Source: Odontesthes bonariensis
Lineage: Eukaryota; Chordata; Actinopteri; Atheriniformes; Atherinopsidae
Reading direction: 5' to 3'
NCBI RefSeq assembly: GCF_027942865.1
Contig: NC_134520.1
Location: 3,222,501 to 3,286,500 of the forward strand
Length of the DNA stretch: 64,000 nucleotides
The translations under genes and the position numbers were made by a program. Shown here piece after piece: positions 13,601-59,646 of the stretch. The notes under the pieces are model-generated. The model was not told where the DNA came from. It saw nothing but the letters and a program-made list of their open reading frames with translations, and did not search any database. Each line of letters starts with the position of its first letter. Within the stretch, counting starts at the first letter, position 1.

Positions 13601-16600
13601 TTTGCACACTGTGCAAAAAGCCTCGTCTACATTATTGTCCACTGGTTTTAACCAGTGGACAAAATGATTATTTCTCGCGCCACGCTTCATTACATTTACA
13701 TTTCCCCATAATCCCAGCAAGAAATGGGAAGCAAGGAAAAGCAAACAAATGTTAAAAAACAACATAACGGCGTAAGTTAAACTTTCTTGTTTTCTGCTGA
13801 GATTTGCCTTGATTTTTCATGCTTCTGCTTGGCTTGTTGCTGCGGTCTGTGTCAGTGCTGTAGCAATGTGATCGGACCCGGGCGGAGCGGTAGCGGCAGC
13901 GTTGCGTTCTCAATGATTGGTTCCGCCACTCTTTATTTAGGCTACGTTATTTAGGCTTTTCAAAATAATAGTAGCCTTGTTGACAAATGAAACGTTTGAG
14001 GAGAATGCGATACGGAGAAGTTACTGCACAAATTTTAAGACCCAGATATCAAAATTCAAGACTTTTTCAAGTCTTTTTAAGGTATTATTTCCAAATTCAT
14101 AAATTCAATGCTTTTAAGACTTTTTAAGACCCCGCGGGAACCCTGCTTGAATTTCCTCTGCCAATGTGGCTCTTGTGGAAAAAATTGTGAGTATCTGATC
14201 TAGGGTCTCACCTGTTGGATCTCTCTGTCCTGTTGTCCAACGGTTTCTCGGAGTTTTCTGCGTTCCGTGTCGGAGGAGAGCAGCTCCAGGCGGATGGAGT
14301 TACTGAGGCCTTCAGCCTTCTGCAGTTTGTGATCCCGCTCCTCCACCTCAGAGTGGGCCATCCTGAACCGCTCCAGCAAATCCCTGTTCTCCTTCTCCTG
14401 AGGGTCAACACCGAACAGTCAGCAGGGGAGCTCTGCGGTGCGCGTAAAGAGCTCTAATGACTCGCAAGCAAAACAACCCCTTGCCTTCGTGGCCATCAGT
14501 TTCTCTATTCTGGACACTTCGGAAATGTAAGAGTGCATCCTCAACTTCAGCTCGTCCTTCTCGTGCAAAGCCTCCTCCATCTCCGCATGCACAGCCTGAA
14601 CAAGGAGGGAAAAAACACCAAAAACTTCCATTACTTTCTCTTTAGTTTTGGTCTATGACACAGAGGACTTGGCGCTCGGCTGTGAAAATCTGATGATCAT
14701 TTACTTGGTTCTCTCTGGTCATCGTGCTCAGGTCATCTTGCAGCCTCCTGTTCTCTCTGATGATGATGTCTCTGTCCCTCCTGAGTGCAGCCAGCTCCTC
14801 CTGACATGTATCCAGCTGCCTCCTCAGACTGCTCACCTCCCTCTCACGACTGTTTGATGCTCCCTGCAGCTGACTGAACGGGTTGAAGTCACAGGCATCA
14901 CAACAATCTCATTAGTGAAGGGAAAAAAAAAAAGAAGAAATAAATCAGATGTACTGAAGCCACCATGAGAGCACTGCACTCACGCGAGTGAGTTGTCCAT
15001 GTTTTTGACTGTGAGTCTCACATCCTCAAGGGTCTTTTCCTGCGTGAAAAGGCCAAATAGAATGCGCCTCGTTAGTAAAACCACCGGACTTTACAGACGG
15101 GAACCTTAGGGCCCTATAATTTCACGGAATCGGCCGATTAAAACGGAATATATTTTTAACGCTAAATATCGTAGAATTTGATATATTTCACTGAAATGCT
15201 GTTTTCACGTGGAAGAGAAACATATGTCTGGAGAGACCTGCACAGAGGGAAGCAAATCTGGGTGGCACAACAAGCCCCCCTCCAGACTAAGCCCCTGCCC
15301 CCTTCGTATATTATAACAGCACGAAACTCCTTCAATTCACCAATAATATTGGTGAAATGAAGGAGTTTCGTGCCTTATTTAGAGGCTGTATTGGCCTTGC
15401 CCCGTTTACTCTCGTTATAATGTACGCGGATACGACTCAGAGTGACACCAAAATGTTATCAATGAGTAAATGAACGTATGTACAGCTAGAAATAAGGTCC
15501 AGGTTTCCCTTTAAGTAACTTGGTTAAGTTAAATTTGAAGACGTTTAAAATGTTTGGTTGTTGTTTTATGTCAAGTCAGCTAAAGTTTCATTACTTGCTG
15601 CTTGTTTTTGATGTATCGAGGAAAAATTTGGGGGTTTTTTTTCACCTCAAATTTAGGTTAATTTCTATTTAATTTGTGTACATTTTAGTCATTCGCATTA
15701 AAAACACACCGTTTTTGGTAGTAAAATAAGAGTAACACCTCAGCCTGACTGAAAGTGAGCGAGCGAAACTGACGCGATACGACAACGAAATTTCGCGAGG
15801 GTGTCCTGATATGCAGCGTGACGATTTTGTCGGGAGTGATACTATTGGTTCAGAAAGTACTCACTTGAAACACTGAGTTCTCTGGCTCAGATCTTTGTGG
15901 TACAGGTGTTTGGGGTCATAAACCATGGGGTGCTGTTCCACGGTAAAGATCAGCTTCTCCTCGTCCATTATTCCCTGAGTGATGCTGACCTGTTGCTAAC
16001 TAGCTTGTCAACAGGAAGCAGCGCGTTCATTTCAACCAATAAGAAGTGTTTAGGGGCGGGACGCCGCGGCGAAATGTCGTCCACATACAGACAGCGCGGG
16101 CGATTTTATAAGGGGTCTGCGTCATCGCTGGATGGAGCGACATCGCTCGCGGCATGTCAGGACAGGCTGATTGAAAAGTACGCTTTCTAATCACTTTTTA
16201 TCAATTCAGTCAGAATGAGGTGTAAAAGGTAAAAAAATAAAAAATACAGGAATTCGTGAAAAAAGAAAATCAAACAGATTTTATAGGGCCCTAGAACCTG
16301 TCCTTTCACAGATGGTTGCGATCGTAGTGAGGTTTGTTGGGACTGCTACCTTCTTGGCTAGCTCCTCTTGGAGAACCACTAGTTTTTCAGTCTTTTGATC
16401 CACGTCATCCTGCAGAACATCCTTCTCTCTGTCCAGGGTAGACAGTGACTTCTGAAGGGCAGCCACTTCCTCTTTGTGCTTGATGCTGCGCTGACTCAGC
16501 TCCGCTGGGAGTGGAATAAAAATAAATTAATTTCAGCCAACGGCTGAGCAGTCTTAGCGGAAACGACGGAAGCAGAACTCCACGACGGAGCAGAAGACTC

Positions 16601-19600
16601 ACCAAATCTCCGCTCGAGGTTTTCAATCTGCTCGTGGGCGGCGTGCAGCTCATTCGCCTTTACAGAGAGCCTGTGTTGGGTATCGGATAACGTTTGCTCC
16701 ATCTGCTCCTGTAGCAGCCTAAAGATGTGGGCGAAGAAAAACAAAACAAACAAAAAAAAAGTGTCAGCTTTTTTAACATGCACGTGGAAATAATCCCTCA
16801 GCATTAGGGCGATTGAGGATATCACCTCAGAGCATTCGCCTCTGCCCTCTGCTGGGCGGCCTCCTCTGCATTGTGGACCAGAGCAGCGGACCGTACCGTC
16901 AGCTCCTCCTCCGCAGCCTCCCTGCTCTCCTTCAGCAGACACAGCTGTGAGCGCTGGTCGAGCCGCTCTCGCTCCAGCTGCACCCCAAAACATGCGCGGC
17001 ACCAGCGGAGCAAAAGGGAATTACTTTCCAATCACTAGGGAGGGAGAAAAGGCTCCAACAGTTATGTCGGGACGTCAGACTCACACTTTTGATGGTGTTC
17101 TCCAGCTCGAGAATCCTCCTCTCCTCCACTTGTCTGTCCGTGAGAGCGGAAGTCTGGGCGATCTTCGGATTAATATAGCGTTAGTCACAACGTTCTCAAT
17201 CGAGCGACTTGTTTACACCGACAGCGATTTCTCAGGTGAGCTGAACATGTACCACCAGTATCATTTTGAACTGAATAAACCAACCGATTGCTCCATCTTT
17301 GAAATGTCACAGAACATTTCCAAAACTGCTGAGTAACTCCATTTGAAAGTTAAAAACTTTTTCTTAAAGTTTACAAGAAACCCAGTCAGGGGACATTTTC
17401 CCTCCCGAAAATCATTGTGAAATCCTGACAGTTAGAAATCCAACGAGTCAAACAAGCAGTGGATGTATTTCCTAAAACAATGACGGGTGCCCTGCGGCTG
17501 ACTTATTGTCTTTTTAAGCTTCACAATCGTGCATCAGAGTCACGTGTGCGATGCAAGTGGGCCGACCTTTAATCTCTCCATCAGTGCGTCCCTCTCAGCG
17601 GTCATCTGCTCAATCTTCACCTCTGCCCGCGTCATCTCCTCCTGCAGCTTTAAGACGCCTGAAATGTCGGCGCTACGGGCCAACGTGAGGTCATCTTGAG
17701 CCTAAAGGGGTAACAATATGTGGTTCCTATGACTGTGAATCGCTTGTATTTATCGTTGTCATGTCAAGTGCACACCTGCAGCAGAATATCTGGGGAAAAA
17801 AACAAAAAGAAGAAGGTGTACCTGCTTAAACAGGGTTTTGAAATGGTCCCTCTCGTTGCTGAGGACCTTCACATTGCTCTGAATGTCCTCCACGTGCTTC
17901 TCGATGTCCAGCAGAGCCGCCCTAAGCTCGTCCCTTTCCTTCATTATGTGAAACAGTTCTGCCTCTGCAACGCCGCTCTGAATCATGCCAAACCATTACA
18001 ATATCAACATTAGAGTCTTTGTTTCTGTTTTTCTAAACTTCTGCTTTATGAAACCCATCTGTTTGGTTTCTTTGTGTCGTCATCTCTTACCTTGCTTACT
18101 TTAGACCTTGGACTCCTGCCTCTGTCTGGACTACGAATGGGGCTCACGCCCGGAGAACCAGCTCCTCTGGCTCTTTTGTAGCGCTCGGCCTCTTGGCGAT
18201 AGTAATCTCTCTCCTCCTCAAGACTCTTGACAAAGACGTCTAGACGAGATGGGGATCGCTCTCTTCCACAGACACCGTGTTTGGCACGCATGGTCTCTAG
18301 CTCCAGTACCAGGTCTTTGTCTATGAAAACAGCAGCGATTCACTAATACAAACCGATGTAAACGAAAAGAAGGCCGACGGAACGAGCTTTAGCAGCTGAG
18401 GTGCACCAAACTGTTGCCTACCAGCTGCCAGCATCTGCTCCACTTTGTCCTGCAGCCTGATTTTCTCGTCCTCCAGGAAATTCACCAGTCCCTCCATCTT
18501 CTCGTTCTGTTGTTTGAGCTCCGCCAGCTGATCCCTGAGGCGGTCCTTTTCAAATTCACCTTCAGATGTCTCCTGAATTCAATCATTCCAAAGACATATC
18601 ACATACAGTTCATATAAATCACATACAGTTTATATAAAAAGTTTATTGAAAAAGTATAGCGTCCTTTTACATTATAAACTGGAATTCAATTGGACGTTTT
18701 ATGTAGTGGACCCACACAAAATAGTTTAAATTAGTACATAATTATGCATGCTTAAATTTACCACTTTTTTCTTGTTTGCTTCAAATAAGAAATGTTTCGC
18801 ATCTTAGTGGTCGTTGGCCTGTTGCGCAAATCCAATGATAAAACTTCCCCCAAATGTCAATTTAACACCAGGTTGTAGGGCAACCAAGTAGGAAAGCTGC
18901 CAGCGATGGTGAATACTTTTGCGAGCCACTGTACAGCAGCTCAGAACGTGCTGGATCAGAAAATAAAGAACTGCTCATACTACGTATCAAACGCACCCTT
19001 CTTGCCGTTGTGATAATATCCTCCAAATCTTTGATGATTCTCTGCTGCCTTTGAATTTCTTTCTGTTGGAACAACAGATGGTCAGTTCAAATGCACAACA
19101 TTTCATTTGTCTTTTTTAAACCTCACGCACAAAGTTTTCTCTCTTTTAGTCTCACTTTAGTTTCTTGCAGCTCCATGTCAGCGGTTTCCAGTACATGCTC
19201 CTTGTCTATCTCCAGGCGCTTCGCAAGATCATCTATGTGCGTCAGCTCTTCACACAGTTCCAGGTTTTTTAATGACAAATTGGCCACTTCGGAGGAGGCG
19301 TCCTGCTTTTTCCGCTGCAGTCCGCTGATTTTTTGCTCCAGAGTTCTGTTGGTTTCCTGTAGGTACTCAATCTATGGGGTGTAGAGCATCAGAGTACAGC
19401 TGGTGAGTATCTTCAGCCACTCATGGCCCTTATCTATGAGATGACTTTTTAATACTCCATCTGCGGTGAGGTGTGATTACCTGCAGGTTTAGATGAGCGA
19501 TCAGTTTCTCGTTGCCGACGCTCTGAGCTTCAAGTGTGATGACATCATGAGGTCGTCCTCCGCGAAGTACATGATTCAGACGCTCCATTTCTTTGTTCCT

Positions 19601-20780: not shown

Positions 20781-20781
20781 A

Positions 20782-21200: not shown

Positions 21201-21533
21201 CAACAACCTCTAACAGGTCATTATCATGATACATTGGCCTTTTTTTTTTTTTTTAAACCTTAGATCATGAAAAGCCTCTACATGAACATTTTTCCGCGGT
21301 AAACAGTTTGAAAAGAGCGCCGATGCTCTGAGGTTTGGATTTGTCACCATGGAAGTAGAAAAAAAAATTCAATGGAACATCTGGGGCAGCTTCTTTTGTC
21401 AACCGGCGTTGTCCGATAAGAAGACGGACGGGCGGAGTCGGCACAGATCTTTAGCTCAACTAACACAGAAGTAGCAAGTTATGTTATTAACAGTCAAATT
21501 AATACTCATTAACTTTAAATCGTGGGATGCAAA

Positions 21534-21539
21534 TTTATT
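21534..21539 (-). terminator. Candidate poly(A) signal of exoc1
   Basis: TTTATT on plus is AATAAA on the exoc1 strand, 263 bases after its stop codon. About 330 bp then remain before the inferred cep135 start region, so the two genes are closely tandem. Confidence 0.45.
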
Positions 21540-24800: not shown

Positions 24801-27800
24801 ACAAAAGAAAACCACTTTGGAGGCACATACAAGTTTGGTAATATAGGTTTAGGGATTGGAAACTCCCCGTAACACCACCACATCACCTGCAGAACAGAAG
24901 CACGAGTTACATCAAGCCTCAAACCCTCCTGTAAATAGCAGCTCTTACCAAACTTGCCCTTCGCTTCTTTGGATGTGCCCGCCATCTTCATCTTGGCAAC
25001 CTCAAAGAAGTCTTTGATTTCTCGCTCATAGAGTCTGCTCATATAATCAACGTAAGTCTACAAAAGAGAGGAGACCTCCGTTAGAATTTACAAACGATAC
25101 ACTTAAATACACAGTGAAGACATCAAAAGAAATAGTGGGATACGAACCATTAGCTAAAGAGATTAACTTTGTTTGTCGTCATATCAAAACACATTTGCAG
25201 TTAGCACAGTAACCAACCAAAATCTTACACATCAACCACCTTATCCAAGTCTGGGCAGGAAATGAACTAAGCACACATTCAGAATATATCAAACTAATTC
25301 TTGAAATATTTGATGGGACAACTGCACTGACCCTGGAAAGGCCTTCGTACTTCTCCCTGTGGGTGTTCTTCAGCCACTCCATGAGCTTGGCGTAGCGCAG
25401 CAGGTCCCTGTGCAGGGGGCTGTGTTTGGGCAGAGTGAGCTCCGTCGTGTGCTGTGACAAAGTGGAGCTCTGGTCGTGGCCCTGAAGGAAAAGAGCGAGA
25501 ACAGATAGTAAGCGATATATCCGGTTCAAGTGCATCTTAGAGGCCTACACCGAATCGACAAATGGCCGTCTGGAATGCCCGTTTCTCTTGTCTTTTTGGG
25601 TGCGTCACGCGCGGATGGCGTCGTCGGACCCCGTCAGCGTCTTTATTTCCCCCGGCCGATTCAACATGCTGAATTGGAGTCGGGTTCATCAGTGAAAGGT
25701 CACTCTGACTGGCCGTTTAGTGTAATGAATGAAATCTGTAGTACATTAACATGAAGTTAACTGTGTTATCATTTGATGCGTGAAGCACAAATGCCTAATA
25801 TAAGCATGTGTGTACAAAACAATAAATCCAATTTGCTTCACTTATAATGCAGGTTTTTGGGTCTAAACACACACTAAAACACACCTAACAGAGCTGATCA
25901 CATGTTCGATACTAAAAACTGAACTGATGACAGCTTTACACAAGCATTGTTTTTTTTTTTTTTCTATAACAGTAGAAGTACAGACGCCTGTTTCGCTCGG
26001 CACTGCAAAGTTACATCCTCTTAAGCAAGTGTATATTGTGTGTCTGAGTTAACAGCTGGAGTTCATCTTTGCTGTATTTTCAAAGGCTGTTTCCTAACAT
26101 CAGTTTGGTGTCTGAGAGCGTTTAAAGCTGTTGAAATCTTATTTCAAGTCCCATTCCACCTTGCCGTCTATCACAAACATGTTTAGAGGATGCGATGTTC
26201 ATAATGTAGAGGATAAACTGAGATCTTCTACAATCTCAGCTTTACTCGCCGAAAAGCATCTCTCTGACTGCCATACTGATGTTCTTCTCATGTCCCCATC
26301 AGCGTTCGCATGTTCAGTCTTTACTGCTTTAACCAAAGACATGCACAGAGAGCAGTCAGGCACAGAATTTTATGATGAGAAAATTGCAGCACAGCCATGT
26401 GAGCACCCAAACATGAAAAGCCCTTAGCCGAGTCAGTTGGTGAAAGAGGAGAAATGTGGGCGGAGCCTCCTCAGCTCTGAGATCAAATGGGATGTTAGGT
26501 AGTGAAAATCATACCTCATGCACTAGACAATGCACGGTGGAAGGAAAAGCCTGAGGTCTCATGGCATGTACGCTGGAGTGAGTTGTGAGAGGTCAAACAT
26601 TAGCAAAGAAGGGGCACGTGGGGGTTGTTGTGAGGGTACTCACTGGAAGTGACAGACAGGAGGACCTATAGAACTGAGGGATGGTCATTTTGAAGTGACT
26701 GAAGTGGTTGAACTGACACAGAGACAGAAAGCAGAGTGGGATGATTCAAAGTAAGCAACAAAGAGTCAAGAACAGGAGGGACACAGCTGGAAGGAAATGA
26801 CACAAGGAAGCCCCGGAGGAGTGTTTGGGCTTAACAGGAAGTCCATAAGGAGGGAGAAAGAGCCTGGAAGAGAACACGGGAGACTATGGCCCACCATTTC
26901 ACAGCTGTCTGACGCAGGCTAGGTGTGGGGGCAACACAAACCTGGGCTATATTTCTGCTCCCATTACTTTGTTCACAAAAAATAAAAGCGGTTTTAGATT
27001 GTTTTAGGATCAATTAATTTGTAGCTTCAAGTCTTTACCAACAAACACACGCTCAAATATGTTTTTAAAATGTATATATTTACAGACGGTCATATTGAGC
27101 AATGCTAATACGATGCTTGTCAGGACGTTTGAATCACGAGGAACTCGTTACCTGATGAACAAACACATTATTAAGGTGATTGGTGAGGCGGCGAGCGAAG
27201 GTGTCCCTCAGTTCAGTGAACAGGAGCAGTTGCTGCTTCACAGCCAGCAGCTTCTCGTGGCCTATGGAAAAGAAGATGACGCTGCTTTCATTTGATTGAC
27301 TGCTTAAAAAAAACAAAAAAAAACAGCTGCAGGTAGATTTCATTTGGGCAGCAAGTAATCAATACTGCTTAGAGTGGAAACTAACCGGGTCGAAGGGCCA
27401 CGTTCATGCACTGCAGAAGAGCTTCTGAGGCGTTGATGCAGGCCTCAATACCTTTCGGGGTGGTCAGGTCTCCGTCTTGCAAGGCCCTGATGTGTCCTTT
27501 TGACAAGTCCATGTAGTTCTACAAGAGGATCGATCAAAGAACACAAACATTAACAATACAAAACAATAAAAAAAGTTTTGTTTTAATAAACAACATACAT
27601 TTTTTTTGGTTTTTTTCCCTGTAAAATCAGGTTTATGTGCCATAAAATATACCCAAAGTGAAATGCTCTTCTCAGCACTCAACAGGTCACCACACCTACC
27701 AGGTGGGTAAAAGTACAGAATGGTAAAATGCCTCACCACTAAGAACTGGATCTCATCCAGCAGTTTGCCGTTGTTGGTGTTGCTGATCTGGATGAGGCGG

Positions 27801-28548
27801 TTGCTCTGGGAGATCTGGTCCATCTGCTCCTTGACGCTCTGGAGCATCTCCTCGTAGCTGCTCAGCTTTCCCTCGATGGTGTCCACCTCCCCCAGCGCCT
27901 CATCCAGCAGCTGCATCAGGATATTCACCTGCTTCTCTGACGCCATGATGGACTGAATGTTGGCCTACAAGATTGAGAAGTGTTAGAGATGAATAGGGGT
28001 TGAATGTCTCTTAAGAACACGCCACATCCTGAAACTGAGAAATAAAAAAAGTCATCTTGGAGGATCCTGTTTAGGCAAGTTTCTGACATAAATTCACCGC
28101 AGGCGTTTTACTCACCCCATCTAAAACCTGCAGCTCCTTGAAGAGCTTCTCTGCAAAGGCTTCAGCATTGGAGATGGCGTACTCGCAAATCTCCATCATG
28201 CCCTCGATGTCCTGCTCCTCGCGGGTGCTGAGCTCCTGGTAGTCGTCCAATGCGTCCTCGTCGCCCCCCGCCACACTTTGGCTCTCACCGCTTGGCACTG
28301 ACTCTAAGTCCACGAAAAGACACGAAAAGAGAACACGCAAGCCGTGAGCACAAGCACAGACTTCCAGCCACAGTCTGGTATGAAAACCTTTCGAGAAGAA
28401 CCAACTACGGACGCGGTGGCGTTCAGTAATCGGAAATGCTATCCGAAAGTTTTCATTGTTTTATCTGGAAAAACTGCAGTAAAAGTGTACAAAAAGGGAG
28501 CAGGACAATGAGCACATAATGGAAAACAATCTGAGGCCGTGGCCAAAA

Positions 28549-34350: not shown

Positions 34351-36790
34351 TTGGTGAACTGGATGGTTTAAGCTACTAGTGTAGACGGTCCATCACATTC
34401 AAATAGCTCTGCACTGTTTCTTCAGTTAGTACGTTCCCTGGTAAAACAGCTGGAGCAGCGCTGTTGAGTTCCAGTGGGTTAAAGAAATACGGCATAAACA
34501 GACCTTTTTCACAACCGCCATTCTGACATGACACAGCAAGGAAACACAGGCGCTATCAATCCCATAATTTGAGGCTATGTACCAAATGGAACAGAATTTT
34601 CATTAATGTCATTAACAATTTCACTGTTTACCTACAATTTCATATCAAAATGGCCACTGTGGAAATGGTTAATTGTTGTCATTCTAATGGAAAGGTGCAA
34701 CAATTTAAAGGAGTTTGATGTAGTTATAAAAACCTGTTGGCTGATTTTCTGGTTGAGTCACTGAAGCCCACGCAGGTGTTTCCACTTGTTGCCTAATTAG
34801 GTCTCTAATGTGTGGATGTGTACAGACCCAAAACAGTTTAAAATGCCCTCATTATCACATTTTCTTAATTGTGTTATTGCGGCACAACACACAAGTCTGA
34901 GGCCAACAAGCACCATATGAGCACAATGTCGAACCCCATTAGAGTGTGGAATTATGTCAGAATGTGCCACTCCATTATAAGACTGAACTCTTTTGGAAAG
35001 TTAAACTGCTGGGAGAAATCTGTTAAAATGTCAACATTTAGTCAAACATAGAGCCCCGCTGGTGAACTCCTAAGAACCTTACGCTCTTTGACAGAACACG
35101 AGGAACAACAAAATCCGATCAAACCTGGAACTCTTAGAATATGGAACTCGTAAATGAAGTCAGATGTTTGAAAGGGCCATAATTACCAACAGAGGCTATT
35201 CCAGCTGCAAAGCAAACACAACATTTGGAAATGTTATGAAAGTCAATGCTTATTTTTATGTCTACAATGGAACAAATGATAAAACTAGAAACTGAAGAAA
35301 GGCTTTACCATGAGCGATGTTGGATGTTATGTGAAATAATTACGTTCTTATCTCACACAGTGGTTTATGGACCACACAATGGAGAATCGCTGACCATATA
35401 ATGTACTAACTACGTAACAGGAACGTAACACCCATCACAAAAGAGTGAACTGTACACATGCTACAGTAGATATGGCTGTGTGTCCGAGTACCTTTAAAAA
35501 ACCCACAACAATCTGTTATTTTTAAATGCGTTTGAGTCGAAGAGGAGATTACAGCTCCTCATTATATCTTTCTATTTTCTTTTAATATATCTTGCACCAT
35601 ATGGTTTATAGATCTGGGATGTGTTTATTTTGCATGATCCATTAGGTGTTGACTTACACAAATCCCAAACAGGAAATCATAACGCACTCTGCAGTGGCAG
35701 CACTTTCAAGCTCTGAATGATGTTTCGCGTACGTCATGTCAATGGAGCATTACTCTCATTTAAACCAGAACATTTGTTGGTACATGCTTGCCCCAGATCT
35801 CGATTGGAAGCTGAATTTGGGGTGGATATCTTTGTGAAATCTGTGACAGCAAACATTCATCGTAGCAAAAGGGGAAGTGGGTTGTTTATTGATGACATTC
35901 ATTTAGCCGACTGTGCCCACACAGGAAATTGTAAATGTGCCAGATGAAATATATTGATACGTATAACGTTGTAGTGAAACATAATTCCACAAAAACACTT
36001 GCTTGGATCTCTGTTACGTGATGCTAGTGTCCCATGTAACATTATTAGTAAGCAAATTCCAAGATCAAAATGCATAGATCATCTTTGCATTGAGATTACA
36101 GTATATTTGTGTGGTTAAGATAACAATGTCCTTCAGCTGATATGTAATATTACATTTTCTGATTAGTTTGAAATTCAAATCACGGAATATTCTAGCTTTG
36201 TTTTGAAAGTCTGCCTGTACACATACATTTGTTTCGATTCATAAAGTTTAACTAGGTTTAGGACAAGGTGGCAGCTTCTATTAAATGCAAAAAATTAAAT
36301 TTAGAAAAAAATGTATTCAAATATTTCATCGCAATTTGTAGGATGGGTGACAAAAATTCTGTTTTTAGTGATTCCAGCCATTTTGCTACCCAATAAACAA
36401 AGAGTCTTGATATATCACATAGAGTTAACTAATGTTTATTGTAGGAGGATATGACTTGTTAATGAGTTACTCGCCCCTCTAATTTTCCAGTCATAAACAC
36501 CAGTCAAAACCCAGATGTGTTTCGGTCGGTCGCACTCTGTGCTCACCACTCTAGTCCCAGTGTTTAAAATGAAAGTTTCTGGTGGACAGCTTGAGAGGGA
36601 TTATTTTAAATGTACATTAAAATTGTAAATAAAAAGGCTAAAGCCATTAGTTTGTTAGAATAACTTGAAAATGAAAAAAGAGAGAAATATCCACCTGTAC
36701 ATTTTTATCTCAATAGTTTGGTTTCAATATGGAATAAAAGTACTGTATACGATTTGTTCATGACACGTTTTTGCAACCTAATACCCGTTG
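34351..36790. other. Intergenic, no gene seen
   Basis: A 76-codon open frame at 35717-35947 (+) has no recognisable motif or splice context. The rest is AT-rich. Confidence 0.4.
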
Positions 36791-37709
36791 TACGGTGGCC
36801 GAGAAGGGCAAAACAAAATTACAAACTCTGAAACACTTTTACATTTTGGAAAACAAAATAACATTTCCCAAAACAAATTAACATTTCAGAAAACAAATTA
36901 ACATTTCAGAAAACAAAATTACAAACTCTGAAACACTTTTACATTTTGGAAAACAAAATAACATTTCCCAAAACAAATTAACATTTCAGAAAACAAAATT
37001 ACAAACTCTGAAACACTTTTACATTTTGGAAAACAAAATAACATTTCCCAAAACAAATTAACGTTTCAGAAAACAAATTAACATTTCAGAAAACAAATTT
37101 ACATTTCGCGAAACACTTTTACAAGTTCCGAAACAAATTAACATTTCACAAAACACTTTTACAAAGTCGACAATATTACGGAAAGGGAGGTTCCAAACCT
37201 CCAAGCTCCGAGGTTGACCCGGAAGTTATAACGGAAGCCTTCGATTTGAATTCATAGTGATCCAAGCGTTTCAAAACGCTGCTATATCAAATCGAAGGCT
37301 TCCGTTATAACTTCCGGGTCAACCTCGGAGCTTGGAGGTTTGGAACCTCCCTTTCCGTAATATTGTCGACTTTGTAAAAGTGTTTTGTGAAACAAATGTT
37401 AATTTGTTTCGGAACTTGTAAAAGTGTTTCGCGAAATGTAAATTAGTTTCGAAACTTGTAAAAGTGTTTCGCGAAATGTAAATTTGTTTTCTGAAATGTT
37501 AATTTGTTTTCTGAAATCTTAACTTGTTTTGGGAAATGTTATTTTGTTTTCCAAAATGTAAAAGTGTTTCAGAGTTTGTAATTTTGTTTTCTGAAATGTT
37601 AATTTGTTTTCTGAAATGTTAATTTGTTTTGGGAAATGTTATTTTGTTTTCCAAAATGTAAAAGTGTTTCAGAGTTTGTAATTTTGTTTTGCCCTTCTCG
37701 GCCACCGTA
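36791..37709. mobile_element. 919-bp foldback element with tandem-repeat arms
   Basis: The whole element is a nearly perfect inverted repeat. It starts TACGGTGGCCGAGAAGGGC and ends with the complement. A perfect 6-bp duplication, CCGTTG, lies at 36785-36790 and 37710-37715. Each arm consists of a subterminal array of short units of the form AAAACAAA(A/T)TAACATTTC, ACAAACTCTGAAACACTTTT and ACATTTTGG. A non-repetitive inner arm then carries GGAGGTTCCAAACCTCCAAG and continues to a short centre near 37255-37275. It has no ORF. It is a non-autonomous DNA transposon, with the same target size and TA-terminus as the TAGGGCCC and TACGGAGC elements. Confidence 0.92.
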
Positions 37710-37715
37710 CCGTTG

Positions 37716-40330: not shown

Positions 40331-42115
40331 CATCATAGCACAGAAACTGCACTGCTGAAAGTTACCAATGATCTCCTCTTAGCCTCTGATAGCGGACTTG
40401 TGTCTGTGCTTGTCCTGTTGGATCTCAGTGCTGCATTTGATACGGTCGATCACAGTATCTTATAACACAGACTTGAACATGTTATTGGGATTAAAGGAAC
40501 TGCATAAGGCTGGTTTAAGTCATATTTATCTGACAGATTTCAGTTTGTTCTTGTAAATGAAGAATCTTCCTCACACACCAGAGTAAGCTATGGAGTTCCC
40601 CAGGGTTCTGTGCTTGGACCGATTCTTTTTACTTTATACATGCTTCCATTAGGTAACATTATTAGACAGCATGGCATAAATTTCCATTGCTATGCTGATG
40701 ATACTCAGCTGTACTTATCTATAAAACCAGATGAACCCAATAGGTTGGTCAGACTACAAGCATGTCTTAAAGACATAAAGACCTGGATGACTCAGAACTG
40801 TCTGCTTCTAAATTCAGACAAAACTGAAGTCGTTATCTTTGGACCTGAGCGTTTCAGGGAGAAATTGTCTAGCTATATAGTTACTCTAGATGGTATTTCC
40901 TTGGCTTCTAGTTCTACAGTGAGGAACCTTGGAGTTATTTTTGACCAGAACTTATCATTTGACTCGCATATAAAACAGGTTTCTAGGACTGCCTTCTTTC
41001 ATCTTCGTAATATTGTTAAAATCAGGAACATCTTGTCTCAGAGTGATGCAGAAAAACTAATTCATATATTTGTTACTTCAAGATTGGACTACTGTAATTC
41101 TTTATTATTGGGCATATTCTCTGAAAAGCCTTCAGTTGATCCAAAATACTGCAGCCAGAGTTTTGATGAGAACTAACAGGAGAGATCATATTTCTCCAGT
41201 TTTAGCTTCTCTTCATTGGCTCCCTGTTAAATTCAGAATAGAATTTAAGATTCTTCTCCTTACATATAAAGCTCTTAATGACCAAGCTCCATCATATCTT
41301 AAAGATCTCATTATAAGATATTTTCCTAACAGAGCACTTCGTTCCCAAACTGCAGGTTTACTTGAGGTTCCCAGAGTTTCTAAAAGTAGAATGGGAGGCA
41401 GAGCCTTCAGTTATCAGGCCCCTCTATTGTGGAATAAGCTGCCAGTAAATGTCCAGGAAGCAGACACCCTTTCCACTTTTAAGACCAGGCTTAAAACTTT
41501 CCTTTTTGATAAAGCTTATAGTTAGGGATGGCTCAGGTGATCCTGAAACATCCCATAGTTAAGCTGCTATAGGCCTAGACTGCTGGGGGGCCTCATCTGT
41601 CACACCTTTCCTCACTTTACTCTCTTTATGTATATGTGATATTATTGTGGTCATTAACTCGTGTTTCCCTGTTCCAACAGATATCCTTTGAATGGTGTTA
41701 CAGTGCCGCCGCCGCCACGGCCCCCCCCCTCCCCCCCCCTCCCCCCCTTTCTGTCTTCTCAAACCCCAGCTGGTCGAGGCGGATGGCCACCCTTCCTGAG
41801 TCTGGTTCTGCCAGAGGTTTCTTCCTGTTAAAAGGGAGTCGTTTCTCTCCACAGTCGCCTCAGGCACGCTCAGGCCGGGAGATTGGACCGAAAAACAAAA
41901 GGTTTTCAGTGCAATCTGTTGGTTTTCTTAGCTAGGAAATTGTTTTTGAATTGGCTCTATATGAACGAATTGGATTATTTTATGAATTATGATTATTATT
42001 AATTAATTGAATTCCAATTGGCTTGAATTGGACTTACTATTTAAGTGCCTTGAGATGACATTTGTTGTATTTGGCGCTATATAAATAAAAATGAATTGAA
42101 TTGAAAAATTGAATG
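40330..42115 (+). mobile_element. 5'-truncated L2/CR1-type LINE
   Basis: The reverse-transcriptase part of a non-LTR element. It includes the conserved D block with the sense of [13 protein letters not shown] (in a frame with stops near 40430-40470), [16 protein letters not shown] (about 40590-40630), YADDTQLYL (about 40690-40720) and the C-terminal [17 protein letters not shown] to FKTRLKTFLFDKAYS, ending at 41525. The frame is broken between 40610-41176 and 41070-41525 by a shift near 41110-41150, and stops interrupt the 5' part. The endonuclease domain is missing. The 3' UTR includes a C-rich tract (41720-41750) and ends in GGCGCTATATAAATAAA followed by GAATTGAATTGA, the typical short-repeat tail of this group in fish. 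Confidence 0.88.
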
Positions 42116-45320: not shown

Positions 45321-45680
45321 TACGGAGCCCCTAAAGGGACATGGAGGGATTTTTTTTTTTTGCGAGATCTCGCAAAAGTTTTTTTCCCTCGTCAGTGAAC
45401 CGGAAGTAAAACAGACACAGCGATTTCAGATGTCTCTCAGTTATGTCAAAGCCATGTCTACGTGCAAGAATGGATTTGATGTCTTTATATGTTAGGCCAA
45501 TACTAAAATAGAAATCAATAAACTTCTCCCACGGATGATGGGTAGGCTCCTCCATCGCTGTGTCTGTTTTACTTCCGGTTCACTGACGTGGGAAAAAAAC
45601 TTTTGCGAGATCTCGCAATAAATTTTGCGAGATCCCGCAATACTAAAAAAATCCCTCCATGTCCCTTTAGGGGCTCCGTA
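45321..45680. mobile_element. Inverted-repeat transposon, TACGGAGCCCC family, copy A
   Basis: 360 bp with inverted terminal repeats of about 105-125 bp, beginning TACGGAGCCCCTAAAGGGAC. Inside the arms is the palindrome TTGCGAGATCTCGCAA (twice in the right arm, once degenerate). The flanks GAAAAC and GAAACA are an imperfect 6-bp duplication. The unique core encodes the start of an integrase-like transposase on the minus strand (see 45425-45555). This makes it an internal-deletion derivative of an autonomous element rather than an unrelated MITE. Confidence 0.88.
45425..45555 (-). pseudogene. N-terminal fragment of integrase-type (IS3EU-like) transposase
   Basis: The ATG at 45555 opens MEEPTHHPWEKFIDFYF, then SIGLTYKDIKSILARRHGF and DITERHLKSL, before the frame enters the terminal repeat (formal stop just below 45331). 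The pattern 'FYF-x-GL-YK-I---L---HGF-I--R-LK' is the N-terminal helix-turn-helix of rve-integrase proteins that are abundant in fish genomes and that I associate with IS3EU transposons. The DDE catalytic core is absent. Confidence 0.65.
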
Positions 45681-45794
45681 GAAACAGCCCCTGTTGTCTG
45701 AATTGTTACTGTATTTTCAAGCTAATTCAAGACAAAATATAGCTGATTTACTCATGAAGCAACAAAAATAACAATGTGAAAAGTTTGTAGTAAC

Positions 45795-45925
45795 TACGGA
45801 GCCCCTAAAGGGACATGGAGGGATTTTTTTTTTGCGAGATCTCGCAATACTTTTTGCGAGAACCCACAATACTTTTGCGAGATCTCGCAAAAAAAATCCC
45901 TCCATGTCCCTTTTGGGGCTCCGTA
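45795..45925. mobile_element. Inverted-repeat transposon, TACGGAGCCCC family, copy B (MITE)
   Basis: 131-bp element with the same TACGGAGCCCCTAAAGGGAC termini as copy A, which lies 114 bp away. It has a perfect 6-bp duplication AGTAAC at 45789-45794 and 45926-45931. Its interior is little more than three tandem versions of TTGCGAGATCTCGCAA. Confidence 0.93.
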
Positions 45926-45931
45926 AGTAAC

Positions 45932-46837: not shown

Positions 46838-46925
<88 letters not shown>

Positions 46926-51249: not shown

Positions 51250-53060
51250 TGACATGAGATTAATAGTCAGTTTTTGTATCCTGTCACTATAAAGTAAAAA
51301 AATAAAATAAAATCACAACAGTGGAAAAAGGTTGTGGTGCTTACAGAAAAATTTGTATGCAGATACAGTATATATTTAATAGATATATAGTCTGTTTGTT
51401 TACCTCATTGTTTGGTTTTCATGTGCATTTTGATGGATTTTATATGCAGGATTCAAACATTTTCTTCTGGCTTAAATGTGTAGTTACTTGTATCGGCAGC
51501 AGATGTCACCGTCATCACTCAATTCAAGTTTCAGGTTTGGTCAGTTCATTCTGCAGAATGAGACTTTGGCACCATTCTTACGAGCTGATACCAATGTCAA
51601 ACACAGATGTTACTCTTGAAAAGACGGCAGATCAAAACATTGTGTGAGACAGATGAAGAAAGGCTAAACTAAATGAATGGTCTAGTTTTATCTCTGTGCA
51701 CCATTGCAGGAGTTCTTTAAAATTCTAGCTGCAAGAATCCACCACACTGAGCGTGAATACTTCAAACGCCTTGTAGAACCGAGGCAAGGTTAAGAAAACG
51801 AGTGTAGGCCATTTAAAGGTGGAACGTTTTCCAATCCCAGATGCTTAATTAGTTTGAAAGCTAAGCAACACGCCCTAAAACAGCGTGTGCTACTGAGTTA
51901 GATATCAGGTACTCTGGCCAACTCAATAAACCAAACCCTCTCAATAAGATTTCAAGTTCGGACTTTAATCAATACAGTAAGACCGGCCTCCAGAGTGTTT
52001 TCTGTGTGCACACAATGTGACTCCCCTGAAAATACAAACAGGTACTGTAAACAGTTTGGAGACATTTATGTGAGCAGTAGAAAACATTTTCCTTCATTAT
52101 GATGAGAGCATGTATGTATAATATCATAAGAGTCAAATATAAGCCTCATATATGGGGAGAGGTTTTAATACTATACCCGGAATAGATGAGTGGTTCTTTG
52201 AGTACTTCTTAAACATAGCCTCTTCCTATAGTCCTCCACTGCTTTCCATTCCTCTACAGTTTAAGATGGATATGGACAGTTTGCCCAAGAGTCTTATATG
52301 GTAGGAACATGGTAGGTCTAGATTCTATCATTCACATTATCCTTAATCCCTTTCTCCAACTGTTTAACCTAAGATCTGTCTACAGAAGATGTATTTTCTA
52401 ACACATTTAGTAAAGCAAATAGATACTTTTAGTTTGCATATTAACTTTTCTTTTGTGCATAAACTAGAGAAATTCATGCGTCCTCTTCCCCCTTTGACAA
52501 AACCCTTTTGTCTAATAGACCCTTGTGGCTAAAAATGGTAATACAGTGTTTGCAACTTTGTCTGTTTCCATGGTGATGGGTACCACGCCGCAGATGGGGG
52601 AAACACGAAGACACTCATCCAATATAATTTCCATCTAAAACAAGTCAGATTTTTCCAGAAATACACACACATATATACAAATATATATACATATATATCT
52701 ATATATATATCTGTGTCTGCATATTTGCGTGTAAAGATGTAAAGGAAAAATGTATGCCAAGTCCTACCGTACTACACAGAACTTATCTCTTTGTTTCTAT
52801 TCCTTGATCCTTTTTTGCTGTCAAATGACTGGGAATGACAGATACACTTTATAAAAGAAAGAAAGAAGCCTAAATGGCCTGGCTTTTGATTGTTATGTCT
52901 ACAAGTGGTTTCAGTTGAACAGGTTAAGCTACATTAGAGGAACACAAACTATTATTACATCAGTACAAGTCCTATTAACTAGACTAGAGTCTATCCGTTT
53001 GAGTATGGGTAGTGCACCTATGTCAAGATATCAATCAGCATTCTCAAACCGAGCGTGTGT
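51250..53060. other. Intergenic, no gene seen
   Basis: AT-rich, with an irregular (TA)n tract near 52670-52715. No coding exon recognised. Confidence 0.4.
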
Positions 53061-53068
53061 TTTAACAG

Positions 53069-53199
53069 GAGTACAGCGGTAGGCCTTTTTGGCACCCGCT
53101 CCAACTCCAGTCGGTCTTCCTTCTCAGCCCTGCGCATTCAATCGTCAGCAGCGCCACTGGGAGCAGGGATATCCTGATGAAAGAGGAGACTGTACAGGG
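53069..53199 (+). other. Possible first exon of an unidentified gene
   Basis: GC-richer, CpG-containing 131-bp segment between a TTTAACAG and a consensus donor CAGGG|GTAAGT at 53199/53200. One frame is open throughout and contains an ATG 25 bases before the donor (MKEETVQG). CpG-rich sequence with CTGGCCGGCCGACCGGC follows at about 53650. It may be the 5' end of the next gene to the right, whose coding exons are then outside the window. I cannot name it. Confidence 0.3.
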
Positions 53200-56100
53200 G
53201 TAAGTGTCACAACTTAACCGGTGAAGCCACTCGTATTTTTTAACGCCGTTTATCGGCAGCTTCTGTGTATACTGTTGCCAGGTGTGAAAGGGAGAAAAGA
53301 GCAGGTTTGCGTTTGCTTGTTGACAGAGACTGGCCAAAGGCCCAGTGACCCACATTCTTATCTAATGCTGCATGTTAGCTTGCTAGCTGTAGCTCGAAGT
53401 GGGTTGACATACAATACATACAGCACCTTATTGAATACGAGTTAAAAGCCTGCTCGTTCACATTATTAAGTCGCTTACCAGCGGAAAAATAACTGCTATC
53501 ATTCTTTCTCACGCGGACTAATATGTCTTGGTTGCGCGTGTCATACGTTGCATTGTGGCAAACTATTTGGGTTGTTGTTTTTTTTTGCTGTTATTGACGT
53601 TAGCAAGTAAGCTAGGTGGCGATAGCTTTCTAGAAATCTCTTCCCGGTTCGCTGGCCGGCCGACCGGCATCACTCGGCAGCACCAGATGGACAGGTAGAT
53701 GTCTGTACCTACATTTGTAAGTGGAAGGCTGACTTAAGTCTAGTTGACCATGCTTTAGAGTCGTAGCTCTCAACATAATTAACATAATTTCCTCATATTT
53801 ACGCCTATTTGTCCCTCAAAGGGATATTCCCCCCTTCTCCCTTGTTAACGAACGTGGCAGCTGCGCTTCTCTCCAGAAGCCCAGTCTTGTTTTAGCGCCG
53901 ATCTATTCTGCTCGTCTCTATAAAAGAAATGATGAAAAACTGTTACGTGTTCAACTTGTCAAGGTTTCCCACCAGCTTGACAGCACAGCTGTATCTTGTT
54001 TGAGAGGCGCTTTAATGCACCTCAATTGCGACTGGGAGCAAACTAACTTTTGCCGTCTTGTGCGCGTATCGAAATTGACTCGCTTGTAAGCGCACTAAGT
54101 GACTTTGAAATAAGCAGGGCACGAGGAATGGTTGCTTTATGTGACAATGAGCATGTTTAAGATTTTGATTTTCTCGCTATCGTTCCATGACGAGGTTTTT
54201 TTAAGTGATTGCGCAGCAATTTATTGAGACAAACGAACAACGACCGTATGAGATCCCTGAGTTAGAGTCCTGTCGTTTCGAAGCTTGGACTGCAGCTCAT
54301 ATTTTTTCTTTCGCTCAGTCAGATTACATTGATAAAAGTGCTCTTAGTATCGTAGGAATTTTGTTTATTTATGGCTTGATTTGTAATGAACAAACCAGGG
54401 ACGTTGCTAGGCATACAGCTGTACAGGGGCACAGGCCACCAACCAGAACCCCACCACCAACACTGCCTTACAGAAAATGTGCCTGTAGCCTACTGGATGT
54501 ATAAGAACATTTATTCAAATTTGTATGAACCTCAACAGGTTTAACAGAGCTATAGGCTATCTAAGCAAATAAAAACACTTTTGAGTTCAACCATTTAGCT
54601 TTTCAATTCCTCCTTCTGTAGCTCATCAAACATAATCAAGTCAGCCTTTTACACAAGAGGCAATATTTCTAAAAAAACACAGTATGTACAGTATTACAAT
54701 TTTCAACAGATACAAAATAATGAACAATATTTCAGTCCAGGTACTGAACATTTTTTAATCTTACTGTAACACAGTCAATAAATACTTCTACAAGAGGGAA
54801 TATTGCAAAATAAAAAGTCAAAAACCTTTAATTAAGAGTACCTGATATGGTCTGATAAGTTATTCCCCTGATTGAGTAGCCTTTTAAACTAGCCTACCCA
54901 CATTTTATCCATTTATAATGCCCAAGATAGTTTAGTAAATTGGGTATAATAGGCAGAATAGGATATTGTCTTGCGTTTTTCATATGCCATGGAACCAGAC
55001 ACTGTTTAAGCCTAAATGCAAACTTTGTCTATTTGGCGTAAGAAATTACAGTGGCCCATAGGTAGGCTTCTCACCTCCCTCCACTTCATTCTCAGTTCCC
55101 CTTGTTGCTTCTCTGTCCCCGACAGAGACACATCAGTCTAGCGTAGTCTGAAGGATGTATGTGGGAATATTTACAGGGGCACAACGCATGTTTAAAAAGT
55201 GTCTGGTGACCTGGAACAAACTATGGTGCGTTTTATTTGTGCTGATGTGCGTTAGCTGTTTTTAATGTGAAGTATGTTGCAACAGAAAATCTAAACGCAG
55301 AAGAACCATATCGTCTGGCACACTGAAATGTTTTTGTTCCTTTTTATATTAGTACAGTTCACTGTGATGATTCATTGTGTCATCAGAGAAGTGCTATAAA
55401 TGAGCATCAATCTACTGTCACTGCAGAGATCTTTGCTTTTGATTTCAAGAAGAGTTTGTGAGAAATGACCATCACTTGAATGCGAAACAACTGCATTTAT
55501 CTCGCAGCTTCTTGTGATTTAAAAATGATTAAATTAGGCTTGTTTACACTTTCATGACACTTTAAATTGCACAACCAAAGAAGTTGGTGAAAGCAGTGTG
55601 CTGCTTTGACATTGTTAATTAACAGAGATGGATGGGTAAAATGGCCTGACCAATGTGTTGCTCAGTTTACATGATGTGTATTTCGATATCAGCTTATATT
55701 GCCTTGCTCTGCAAAAACTAATTGAAAGTGTCTGTCATTGGTCATTAATGTTTTCAATGATCAAATTCAGATTTGGTATGGCTTCAATGATCCAACCCAG
55801 GTCAGACTGGTGGTAGTTTGCACCTTTGCTTTTGAAGAGGTGCTTAATTTTTTTCCATGTCGAGCAGATGGAACTTTTTTGGAGCATGAAAAAATACTTT
55901 GACACCTATTACTCCCTTGCTGGCACCACAGTGCGCCGCAGGTGAGCGGAGGAAACCAGGACAGTTTCCTTCTCTCACCTGTCCTCTGCTTTGGCAAAAG
56001 CTTATCAATATCCCCTGACTATTGTGTTGCTTGGCATCTTGTACACACTGGAACATGTTTGTAAAGGTTTTAGAACTTTGAATGTATCAGAAAACCTTAT

Positions 56101-56562
56101 CTGTGCAGGCACCTATAGATTGTCGCTGTGTTGTCAGCTGTTGTGCATAAAAAGTGTTCAAACATGGCAGCAGAGAACGGCACATTTGTTTGCACTTGAC
56201 AGAGGAGGTGGAACTGATGAAACCGCCAGCAATGAGGAGGGAGAGGAACACTCACTGATGACATTATTATGTGCCATGCCTAATAATGTAATTACACTAT
56301 GCCTGTCATATGGGCCTCTTCTGATGCAGAGGAGCCTGTGTTGATTCAGATGTGATGTTTTCTGGCTTTGGATGAATTCAGGAAGCTTTCAGTCATTAAC
56401 AGCCTTCTTTATCATGGCTGTTAATGACTGAAAGAATTGTTGACTATCAACTAGGGGTACTTGTTTCTTGTATCCCTTGTTGATGGTGTTTTTCAGCAGA
56501 CTGGCGTGCTCCTGGTTTTGATGTGAACTGCTCTGCTGCTGGGCTGAGCAGTAAGTTGAATT
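53200..56562. other. No gene seen; possible intron
   Basis: Mixed sequence with single, unsupported ORFs (54205-54504, 55991-56344). A perfect 19-bp-arm hairpin sits at 56386-56434. If the 53.07-kb exon is real, this is part of its first intron. Confidence 0.35.
56386..56434. repeat. Perfect 19-bp inverted repeat with 11-base loop
   Basis: CTTTCAGTCATTAACAGCC and its exact complement are separated by 11 bases. The length is below a typical pre-miRNA, but the stem is mismatch-free. Confidence 0.9.
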
Positions 56563-56566
56563 TTAA

Positions 56567-57439
56567 AGCGATACTCTGGAGTAGATTCAACCTGGGGTCA
56601 TTTGAACCGTGATATCCAGCCAAGTAGCCCACCCGCAGTTTTTCCGATATTGGCTGAACATCAGCTGAGTTACTGAGTTATCCCGAATAGCTTCGTACAA
56701 GGGTTAATGGATCCTGGCAGTATCTCCAAAATTACTACACTAAAATCACATGCCATGACACCAAACTTCTACAGTAGTACAAATATGGTCTGTACTCACA
56801 AAACGATGCATTTGGAAGTTTGAAAATAGTCCAGGAGTTGATTATTATCAACACAAGCCTGATAGCTTTTCTGCTGCTAAAGCTGCGTCGACGTCACTTC
56901 TGGGAGCTGGGAGCTTCAAAGTAAGATGAGGGTTGATCTACTACTGTAGACAACAAAGTATATGCTATATTCTACATGTTTTTTTATGAATTTTTATGTT
57001 GTACAGTTGTGAATTTATTTTATCAATGGAGAAATTGAGCAGCCTTGCTTTGTTGTCTACAGTAGTAGATCAACCCTCATCTTACTTTGAAGCTCCCAGC
57101 TCCCAGAAGTGACGTCGACGCAGCTTTAGCAGCAGAGAAGCTATTAGGCTTGTGTTGATAATAATAAACTCCTGGACTATTTTCAAACTTCCAAATGCAT
57201 CGCTTTGTGAGTACAGACCATATTTGTACTACTGTAGAAGTTTGGTGTCATGGCATGTGATTTTAGTGTGGTAATTTTGGAGATACTGCCAGGATCCATT
57301 AACCCTTGTACGAAGCTATTCGGGATAACTCAGTAACTCAGCTGATGTTCAGCCAATATCGAAAAAACTGCGGGTGGGCTACTTGGCTGGATATCACGGT
57401 TCAAATGACCCCAGGTTGAATCTACTCCGGAGTATCGCT
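56567..57439. mobile_element. 873-bp foldback MITE flanked by TTAA
   Basis: Inverted arms of about 387 and 390 bp begin AGCGATACTCTGGAGTAGAT and match with only a few differences, around a unique centre at about 56954-57048. TTAA lies at both boundaries (56563-56566 and 57440-57443), the target of Kolobok and piggyBac transposases. The AG... terminus is not the CCC-type start of piggyBac, so Kolobok is the likelier source. It has no coding capacity. Confidence 0.88.
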
Positions 57440-57443
57440 TTAA

Positions 57444-58967
57444 ATTTCAGTTGTGAATTGAATAATAAATCCGAATGATTACAATAATCAAATTACCGTG
57501 ATAATTATGTCACATGCAGTTTTCATATTGTTAAGAACAAACGACAAAAAGATATTGGTCAGGGCTGCTAATTCTCACTCACTGAGCATTATGAGGGCTT
57601 CTCGGATAAGATGCTGTGACACGGTACAGCTGTATGAGTCCGTCTACACAGGGAAGACGGTGTGTCTGAGAAGTCTGACCTGGCCTCTCTCCTATAGGCT
57701 TTTTTAACTTTGTACCACAGACACAGTGTGTTTGCCACAGAGCTTGAAATAGAGCTGGTTTGCTACCGGGCTGCTAGTGGTGTTGCTTGGGGCTTTTTCC
57801 TCATGCAACCTGATTGTGGGAAATTTCGGCACTTTTTTTGGGTCAAAGTTGAGAGCGGGCCAGAGAGGAGTCATTGCCTTTTGCTTAGTCGGCTAGAAAT
57901 CCCAGCTGTGGCAGTGATCCGTGGCCCTCGGGAAGACTGTCTGCCCTGGCGTCTTGCGACAAAACGCATCAAAAGACATGGGCTCATTGGACATGTCTGC
58001 CTGTGCTCCTGATGTCTCTCGGATAAATGGTTGGAACAGCGTCCCACTTTCTATTTAGTTTATTTACAAAAACAACTTGGATAAGACACGGAGGCTTACA
58101 GTATCTGATGTCATGCTATCACAGACTTAAGCAGAGGATGTTAGCTTCTCTTATAACTTGCTTGAACTCCACCGAGCAAGCAGTCAGGATTACCTGAGTG
58201 ACTCTTTCCTCCAACTAGTTTGTTTAGGACATGGCTGTCTGACCCCTCCTGTGGTGATGCTCTGACGATTCAAAGGAGAAGTCCTCAGCCATTGGGTTGA
58301 AGGCTAATTTTACTTATGTTATGTATTTTAACAGGTAAATAACACCCCATGAATATGTTAACAAGGTGAAAAAGTTGATTCTTAGCCAGGAGGGCCTTTA
58401 AAATGATATGCCTGTGAGGCATCAAAGAGACCACGAGAGGACAAGGAGGTGATGTGAGAGTAAAACTGAGAGGAAAGAATTTGTGATGTGGAGAATTGCT
58501 GGAGTCCTTTTTCTGTCCGGCTGAATCTTAGTGCGGAGCCACCGTCAGTCCCATGGTTTTTGTACACTGATGTACTGGCAGCCTGATGGTGCAGATGGAG
58601 ACCTATGATAGAGGTGGCTGGACCGAGTAAACTGCCATCTGCTTTGAATCTCATGCACTCTGCCAGAGTGCACGTTTGTTCATACTGGTGCATCAGTCAG
58701 TCATCACAAAGTCAGTCTAGGCAGCAATGTTAACTGCATTTCTTTCTTTTAGTTTGGAAGAACTGTGGATTCCGTGTGTTGAAAGGGTGGAGTTTGTGCA
58801 ACTGCCATTTACAGAATAATTCCCAGTGATGAAGATCATAATGGATACAACCTACTCACTTTATTAGAACTGCAAAAACTTCCCTGTGACCTAAATGATA
58901 AATAATGGTGGAATTGAGCAACTCCTTCATGGTATGTAAATGGACACACTGGTTTTAATAACATCAA
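57444..58967. other. No gene seen
   Basis: Contains isolated open frames (57498-57707, 57710-58012) without motif or splice support. A pyrimidine tract with TTTTAG at about 58740-58753 could be an acceptor of a non-coding exon, but nothing confirms it. Confidence 0.35.
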
Positions 58968-58973
58968 CATAAT

Positions 58974-59646
58974 TAGGGCCCTATAAAATCCGTTTTATTG
59001 TTTTCCCAAATTCAGTTTTTTCCGTTTTTAATTTTTGGGAATCTTTTTTCTTTTACCTTTTACTCTTATTTTACTACCAAAACTAGTTTGTTTTTAATGT
59101 AAATGACTAAAATGTACCCAAATTAAATAGAAATTAACTTAAATTTATTGAGATGAAAAAAATAATAATTTCCTCAATACATCAAAAACAAGCAGAAAGT
59201 AATGAAACTTTTGTTGACTTGTCATAAAACAACAACCTAACATTTTAAACTTCTTAAAATTTAACTTAAAAAGAGTTACTAAAGCTGTAGCACTAGTTAG
59301 TCCTTGTGAGTTAGTACCTTGTCAATTGAGTGCTAGCAAAATTTGCAGAACAACAGTTCACCTGTCACATAAAAGTCATTTGGGTATTGCTCGGCTCTGA
59401 AGGGTTAGCGCTGAGTTTCAGAGTTTTTTTTGACGACAAAGACAGAGCCGTGGGCAGCCGCTTTGCCATGTTTACATTGTTTTGAAGGGAAAGGGGCTAC
59501 GTCTGTGGAGGGGGCTTGTTGTGCCACCCAGATTTGCTTACCTTTGTACAGTTTTCTCCAGACATGCGTTCCTCTTCCACACGAAAACACCATTTCAGTC
59601 AATCATGTCAAATTCTGCGATATTCCGTGGAAATTATAGGGCCCTA
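58974..59646. mobile_element. Inverted-repeat transposon, TAGGGCCC family, copy 2
   Basis: 673 bp with the same TAGGGCCCTATAA termini as the copy in cep135. A perfect 6-bp duplication CATAAT lies at 58968-58973 and 59647-59652. It is in the opposite orientation: its right part shares with the left part of copy 1 a stretch that, read on the minus strand here, translates KGKQIWVAQQAP. The MADF-like exon of copy 1 is absent. Confidence 0.9.

Follow-up and report, generated by a model that had tools for sequence, protein, structure and literature searches.

In this study, we analysed a window of 64,000 bp from the fish Odontesthes bonariensis (contig NC_134520.1; C20:3222501-3286500 in our contig numbering), in which five short elements begin and end with TA..TA termini beside 6-bp target duplications. 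The five are very probably non-autonomous inverted-repeat transposons of three families, here A, B and C, with B and C being internal-deletion passengers of IS3EU-type transposons and the enzyme of A left unassigned. This reading is carried by the ends themselves, by a 6-bp rule that recurs in many genomic copies, and by a transposase gene with an rva_4 integrase core domain (Pfam PF24764), which is enclosed by two identical B ends and, at another locus, preceded by a C end. The searched genome comprised 945 Mb in 187 contigs, and as some of the searches scored only the best candidates, the counts are lower bounds. The five elements are as follows.

15107..16293, no strand assigned: family A copy A1, 1187 bp, TAGGGCCCTATAA..TTATAGGGCCCTA, with GAACCT at 15101-15106 and 16294-16299
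58974..59646, no strand assigned: family A copy A2, 673 bp, with CATAAT at 58968-58973 and 59647-59652
36791..37709, no strand assigned: family B copy, a 919-bp foldback, TACGGTGGCCGAGAAGGGC..GCCCTTCTCGGCCACCGTA, with CCGTTG at 36785-36790 and 37710-37715
45321..45680, no strand assigned: family C copy C1, 360 bp, TACGGAGCCCC..GGGGCTCCGTA, with the imperfect duplication GAAAAC/GAAACA
45795..45925, no strand assigned: family C copy C2, a 131-bp minimal derivative with both termini and without the transposase piece, with AGTAAC at 45789-45794 and 45926-45931

A preliminary description of this DNA had placed the five elements at these coordinates with TA..TA ends, and had read four perfect duplications and one imperfect one beside them. 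Both observations are borne out, the flanks of C1 differing at two of six bases. The inverted ends extend over about 13 bp in A and about 36 bp in C, and those of B are perfect across all 60 bases compared. A chance scan was made for 10-bp inverted ends with at most one mismatch, 80-4000 bp apart and flanked by exact 6-mer repeats. It found TA-starting ends three times in the window and not once in any of five first-order Markov resamplings; its low-complexity filter hid A2, and without the filter all four perfect cases show. For ends without a TA start, the window yielded 11 cases against 0-5 in the resamplings, many of the listed ones falling within the palindromic arms of B, of C1 and of a further palindrome at 56557-57449. 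The same description had called the three families unrelated. In A, 7-8 of the first 19 bases of the terminus (TAGGGCCC) agree with those of B or C. In contrast, B and C share TACGG..CCGTA and are identical at 13 of these 19 positions, and calling these two unrelated would, judged by their terminal bases, be too strong.

The B terminus pattern matched the genome 81 times, 41 forward and 40 reverse, and the reversed-pattern control gave no match; 80 of the matches start with TA and one with TG. All but five of these termini pair up convergently, giving 38 pairs with lengths between 474 bp and 15.3 kb, and the 6-bp duplication is perfect in all nine copies examined (the window copy and eight others from the 38 pairs). 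The window copy itself (TACGGTGGCC..GGCCACCGTA) has outer arms of about 214 bp that are 98% complementary, and it carries two arrays inside its ends.

36841..37155, no strand assigned: left subterminal array of B, period 20 bp, 15.8 copies, a possible transposase-binding array
37394..37670, no strand assigned: right subterminal array of B, period 20 bp, 13.9 copies

Two of the genomic B pairs contain an rva_4 gene near their right end, namely C18:2013712-2023367 (9,656 bp, perfect duplication CCATAA) and C28:23589889-23599290 (9,402 bp, perfect duplication GTTGTG). For the 141 listed rva_4 places used in the position tests, about 0.011 hits would be expected by chance within the 37 shorter B pairs, an expectation that could be about three times as large if all 422 rva_4 candidates, of which 150 were scored, were real. 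The 15,299-bp pair on C6, which may be two separate copies, was excluded from this estimate. With 150 amino acids (aa) of the C18 gene as query (L108, C18:2022560-2023010), 97 matches were obtained, of which three (on C18, C16 and C28) are at least 95% identical and the next best 62%. Each of the three starts on the inner side of a B terminus, at a distance of 321-358 bp, and points inwards; for the copy on C16, the opposite B terminus was not found.

As an alternative, rva_4 could be a bystander integrase gene swallowed by B elements. Nested insertions are common here (a Harbinger-like one in A1 and a further insert in the family A locus L066), and the B interiors are unread. Moreover, a third rva_4 neighbour, at C18:1809548 and 10.5 kb from C18:1799057, was rejected on finding it outside the B element C18:1797154-1799326, which shows that proximity can mislead. 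Against these points stand the shared place and orientation of the three nearly identical gene copies relative to a B end, and the presence of a different rva_4 lineage likewise behind a C end. The bystander explanation is thus already disfavoured, and we consider it very improbable.

We give even less credence to B as a set of Polinton derivatives. Polintons combine 6-bp duplications with an integrase, as stated in PMC10045372, and the long inverted repeats and the 9.4-9.7 kb length would suit them. Yet none of the 64 DNA_pol_B_2 matches (44 of 44 candidates scored) falls within either of the two long B elements, in a search that did not extend to ATPase and capsid genes, and B ends in TA..TA. 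As an observation of its own, the 64 matches lie on many contigs, and many of them, by the position list, fall within reading frames that stay open over about 1,200-1,400 aa, which suggests that the genome holds Polinton-like elements with open polymerase genes.

Family C gave at least 131 matches in the genome search (best 40 of 139 candidates scored), and its terminus pattern matched 71 times forward and 92 times reverse, 100 of these being listed, with none in the control. Both ends are present in 27 of the 30 loci fetched; L021, L027 and L033, with no second end nearby, were left out, L021 being a longer copy with a one-mismatch duplication. Over the 27 loci, the flanks at 6 bp are identical at 0.75 per base, compared with 0.33 for shuffled partners, and the duplication is perfect in eight and has at most one mismatch in 17, while no perfect duplication of 3-5 or 7-10 bp occurs among them. 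Together with the nine B copies and five complete A copies (four of them perfect), this establishes the 6-bp duplication as general, a point that the preliminary description had proposed to test. The duplicated sites of C favour C/G-A-W-W-T-C/G, and one long copy contains 44.9 copies of a 22-bp unit. The exact 24-base C terminus had no match in viral_contigs.

An integrase-type N terminus had been noted in one member of the five, presumably the following piece of C1.

45424..45555, minus strand: remnant of an rva_4-type transposase N terminus in C1, 44 codons; Pfam Clr5 match with E=1e-4 and 22.8 bits (cut-off 22.3)

The Clr5 match corresponds to a helix-turn-helix, and the piece is similar in sequence to the N-terminal regions of rva_4 transposases. 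Judged by one motif, 12 C loci out of 30 contain it, and a 44-aa query taken from L007 and L009, which differs from the peptide of C1 at two residues, gave at least 139 genome matches (best 150 of 178 candidates scored). One of these, at C29:24764644-24764775, is 98% identical to the query; the nearer edge of a C terminus stands 142 bp upstream of it, and rva_4 follows on the same strand at 24764009-24764404, about 240 bp beyond the peptide match. On C4, 71 bp separate a copy of the peptide from a match to the C terminus, and the peptide is continued by sequence with a weak similarity to transposases (38%, E=3e-5). The locus L091 was considered a candidate for the missing 3' terminus on C29 and set aside, as no C terminus was seen in it; it contains other sequence, hAT-like by eye. 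The preliminary description had named as a further test the presence of full-length partners coding for an integrase between identical termini. Two such partners exist for B; for C, an integrase gene was seen beside one end, and for A no partner was found.

The rva_4 profile has at least 152 matches in the genome (best 150 of 422 candidates scored), and the scores of the B and C29 loci both exceed its curated cut-off. Aligned with the rva_4 protein of locus L088, the B transposase piece shows 40% identity over 134 aa (E=7e-24) and the C peptide 41% over 39 aa (E=2e-6); L088 has the catalytic residues D165, D224 and E265. The HHCC motif is absent in all four sequences tested, including the 150-aa B piece, in which the first catalytic position is residue 139 and the N-terminal end is maybe incomplete. 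In PMC10045372, complete IS3EU families are described as always ending in TA..TA; their duplications are usually 6 bp long, and their protein lacks HHCC and has its first catalytic D at 100-300 residues from the N terminus. Family B has TA..TA ends, the 6-bp duplication, an rve-type DDE transposase between its ends, no HHCC and a first catalytic position within the described range, the last two features being found in L088 as well. Families C and A each have the TA..TA termini and the 6-bp duplication. In addition, the ends of B and C fit the TAYGG..CCRTA given for fungal IS3EU in PMC12730594. Taken together, the evidence supports one superfamily for B and C, and the earlier proposal that a single IS3EU-like superfamily mobilised all the elements is supported in part, for these two, with A tied to no enzyme.

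A second rva_4 lineage was seen at L087 and L089, beside arrays of 22-bp units; the D-D-E spacing of L087 is 56 and 32, and at L089 the arrays stand on both sides as inverted repeats, the element ends not being reached. The rva_4 cores of this lineage are weakly similar to IS481 in L087 (E=5e-4) and to IS3 in L086 (E=0.047), both scores lying far under the curated cut-offs, and L088 matched no family. Separately, 28 listed rva_4 copies are spread over 2.7 Mb at C3:33.18-35.89 Mb, several pairs being about 50 kb apart. Nearly all of them lie in 367-aa frames that contain a TAA stop and in many cases a TAG as well, and the cluster looks like an amplified larger block holding a dead copy.

Several observations weigh against the reading of these families given above. 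The IS3EU assignment was made from published feature descriptions, and the ends of the locus that supplied our reference rva_4 protein, L088, were not established. The B matches span positions 2-110 of the 194 of rva_4, with the second D and the E unread. The C18 gene copy may be dead, because it has E rather than D at the first catalytic position (HAEGYDK, compared with HVDSYDK in L088). The genome search revealed no C element that is both complete and intact; the gene piece on C29 contains a TGA stop and covers only rva_4 positions 10-135 of 194, and the opposite terminus of its element was not located. In ten of the 27 C copies, including C1, the expected 6-mer is mismatched at 2-6 positions. 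Finally, no A copy examined has a transposase of its own, and the 141 rva_4 places listed are all more than 15 kb away from each of 31 A places and 21 A termini.

In the mechanism that we propose for B and C, larger relatives elsewhere in the genome would make an rva_4 transposase (rve-type, DDE) with a helix-turn-helix N terminus. This enzyme would bind the ends that B and C share, and may also bind the 20-22-bp subterminal arrays, before presumably cutting at TA..TA. In integrase-type enzymes the duplication arises from staggered strand transfer, according to PMC10045372; by analogy, the ends would be joined to the target with a 6-bp stagger, and fill-in would produce the 6-bp duplication. 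Both B and C would in this way be mobilised in trans.

Family A requires separate consideration. Copy A1, previously taken as a single element, is composite, given the insert nested in it; the homology between A1 and A2 is on the minus strand.

15736..16222, no strand assigned: Harbinger-like insert nested in A1, 487 bp, CACCTCA ends, 3-bp TAA duplication, outside family A

Harbinger elements follow a 3-bp duplication rule, and the insert is flanked by TAA/TAA outside its own CACCTCA inverted ends. A MADF-like fragment in A1 (E=0.0058, under the curated cut-off) belongs to this insert and was ruled out as a sign of the enzyme of A. The genome search for family A gave 33 candidates, all scored. 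Of the 22 loci fetched (L066-L085, L004 and L037), three have clear end pairs and, besides L066, 18 are truncated, diverged or unresolved. The informative copies outside the window are these.

L004: A copy of 1,411 bp, duplication CTTTAC
L071: A copy of 981 bp, duplication CATGGT
L072: A copy of 721 bp, duplication with one mismatch
L066: A copy of 3,674 bp, degraded ends, one-mismatch duplication

In the five complete copies (A1, A2, L004, L071 and L072), whose ends were located regardless of the flanks, the 6-bp duplication is always present, four times perfect and once with one mismatch. L066 was excluded from this count because its search had required matching flanks. Copy A2 alone would allow an 8-bp reading, which is absent in A1, L004 and L071 and was taken as chance. 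The 21 A termini yield only four complete pairs, all known and at most 1.4 kb long. A self-comparison of the 22 loci found common pieces of up to about 490 bp, which were compared untranslated, so that a coding remnant could be missed. As the identity to A2 is 73-90% in the longer matches, family A may be old and its source lost from the genome.

Family A has the same footprint as B and C, and IS3EU is our first guess for it, with an atypical hAT as the main rival. Whether all three families, A included, are IS3EU is to us an evenly balanced question. All five complete A copies show the TA..TA ends and the 6-bp duplication usual for IS3EU according to PMC10045372. No transposase is linked to A, however, and no rve-type transposase was found between A ends among the rva_4 places listed.

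The rival, in which A is an atypical, hAT6-like hAT element that shares the 6-bp duplication by chance and the window holds two superfamilies, is to our mind possible though somewhat below an even chance. TAGGG, with which A starts, is a usual hAT start, and A does not have the TACGG common to B and C. hAT families with 6-bp duplications, namely hAT6, do exist, as reported in PMC12730594, and the listed rva_4 genes are absent from the surroundings of A as described above. On the other hand, TA..TA with 6 bp fits IS3EU as given in PMC10045372, and no hAT transposase is tied to A ends. A hAT-like open reading frame in L066, read by eye and matching no Pfam family, lies inside what appears to be a separate nested insert with edges CAGGGGCGCC..GGCGCC, and was rejected for now as the enzyme of A. 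No other hAT-like gene was found between A ends, although no search was aimed at hAT families. A Harbinger-like frame spotted by eye in L070 matched no Pfam family either. We also entertain, as a rather unlikely combination, that A (through an unrecognised or atypical transposase) and B and C (through rva_4) converged on the TA-end, 6-bp footprint, with the B elements being large vertebrate IS3EU transposons that hold several kb of uncharacterised cargo.

The remainder of the window contains further repeats and pieces of host genes. The palindrome at 56557-57449 has 402-bp arms that are 98% complementary and 89 bp apart, and since TTTAAA stands at both outer edges, a TTAA-type insertion is suspected. 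A 1021-aa open frame at 60252-63317 has endonuclease and reverse transcriptase domains and is by our reading of the long interspersed nuclear element type; a reverse transcriptase fragment lies at 40508-41176. Two frames are pieces of host genes, one for Sulfotransfer_2 at 9008-9835 on the plus strand and one for the coiled coil of exocyst Sec3 at 27464-27964 on the minus strand.

The analysis connects two groups of short inverted-repeat elements, none with a complete gene, to a transposase gene of the same genome, and it associates the Pfam rva_4 domain with TA..TA ends and 6-bp duplications in two families of this genome; the Pfam entry itself only names the domain. Family A, which shares the footprint and has no demonstrable enzyme, shows the limit of classification by footprint. 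A literature search for the three termini and IS3EU found no description of these families, although Repbase, which it did not cover, may name them. Among the papers listed, seven contain the letters of the B or C terminus, and to judge by their titles none of these deals with transposons. Among known systems, the bacterial IS481 and IS3 elements, to which the L087 and L086 cores bear their weak profile similarity, end in TG..CA according to PMC10045372. The likeness of A to hAT6 consists of the 6-bp duplication and the start of the terminus. The likeness of B and C to IS3EU extends to the ends, the duplications and the rve-type transposase. A difference from IS3EU is seen in the full-length B elements, which are 9.4-9.7 kb long with a mostly unread interior. 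All TET-bearing fungal IS3EU families carry an alpha-kinase, according to PMC12730594, and none of the eight genome matches to the alpha-kinase profile (13 of 13 candidates scored) lies within a B element. Because IS3EU has already been reported in zebrafish, where PMC4746887 lists 17,838 copies, and in killifish (PMC12763893), our finding extends known biology.

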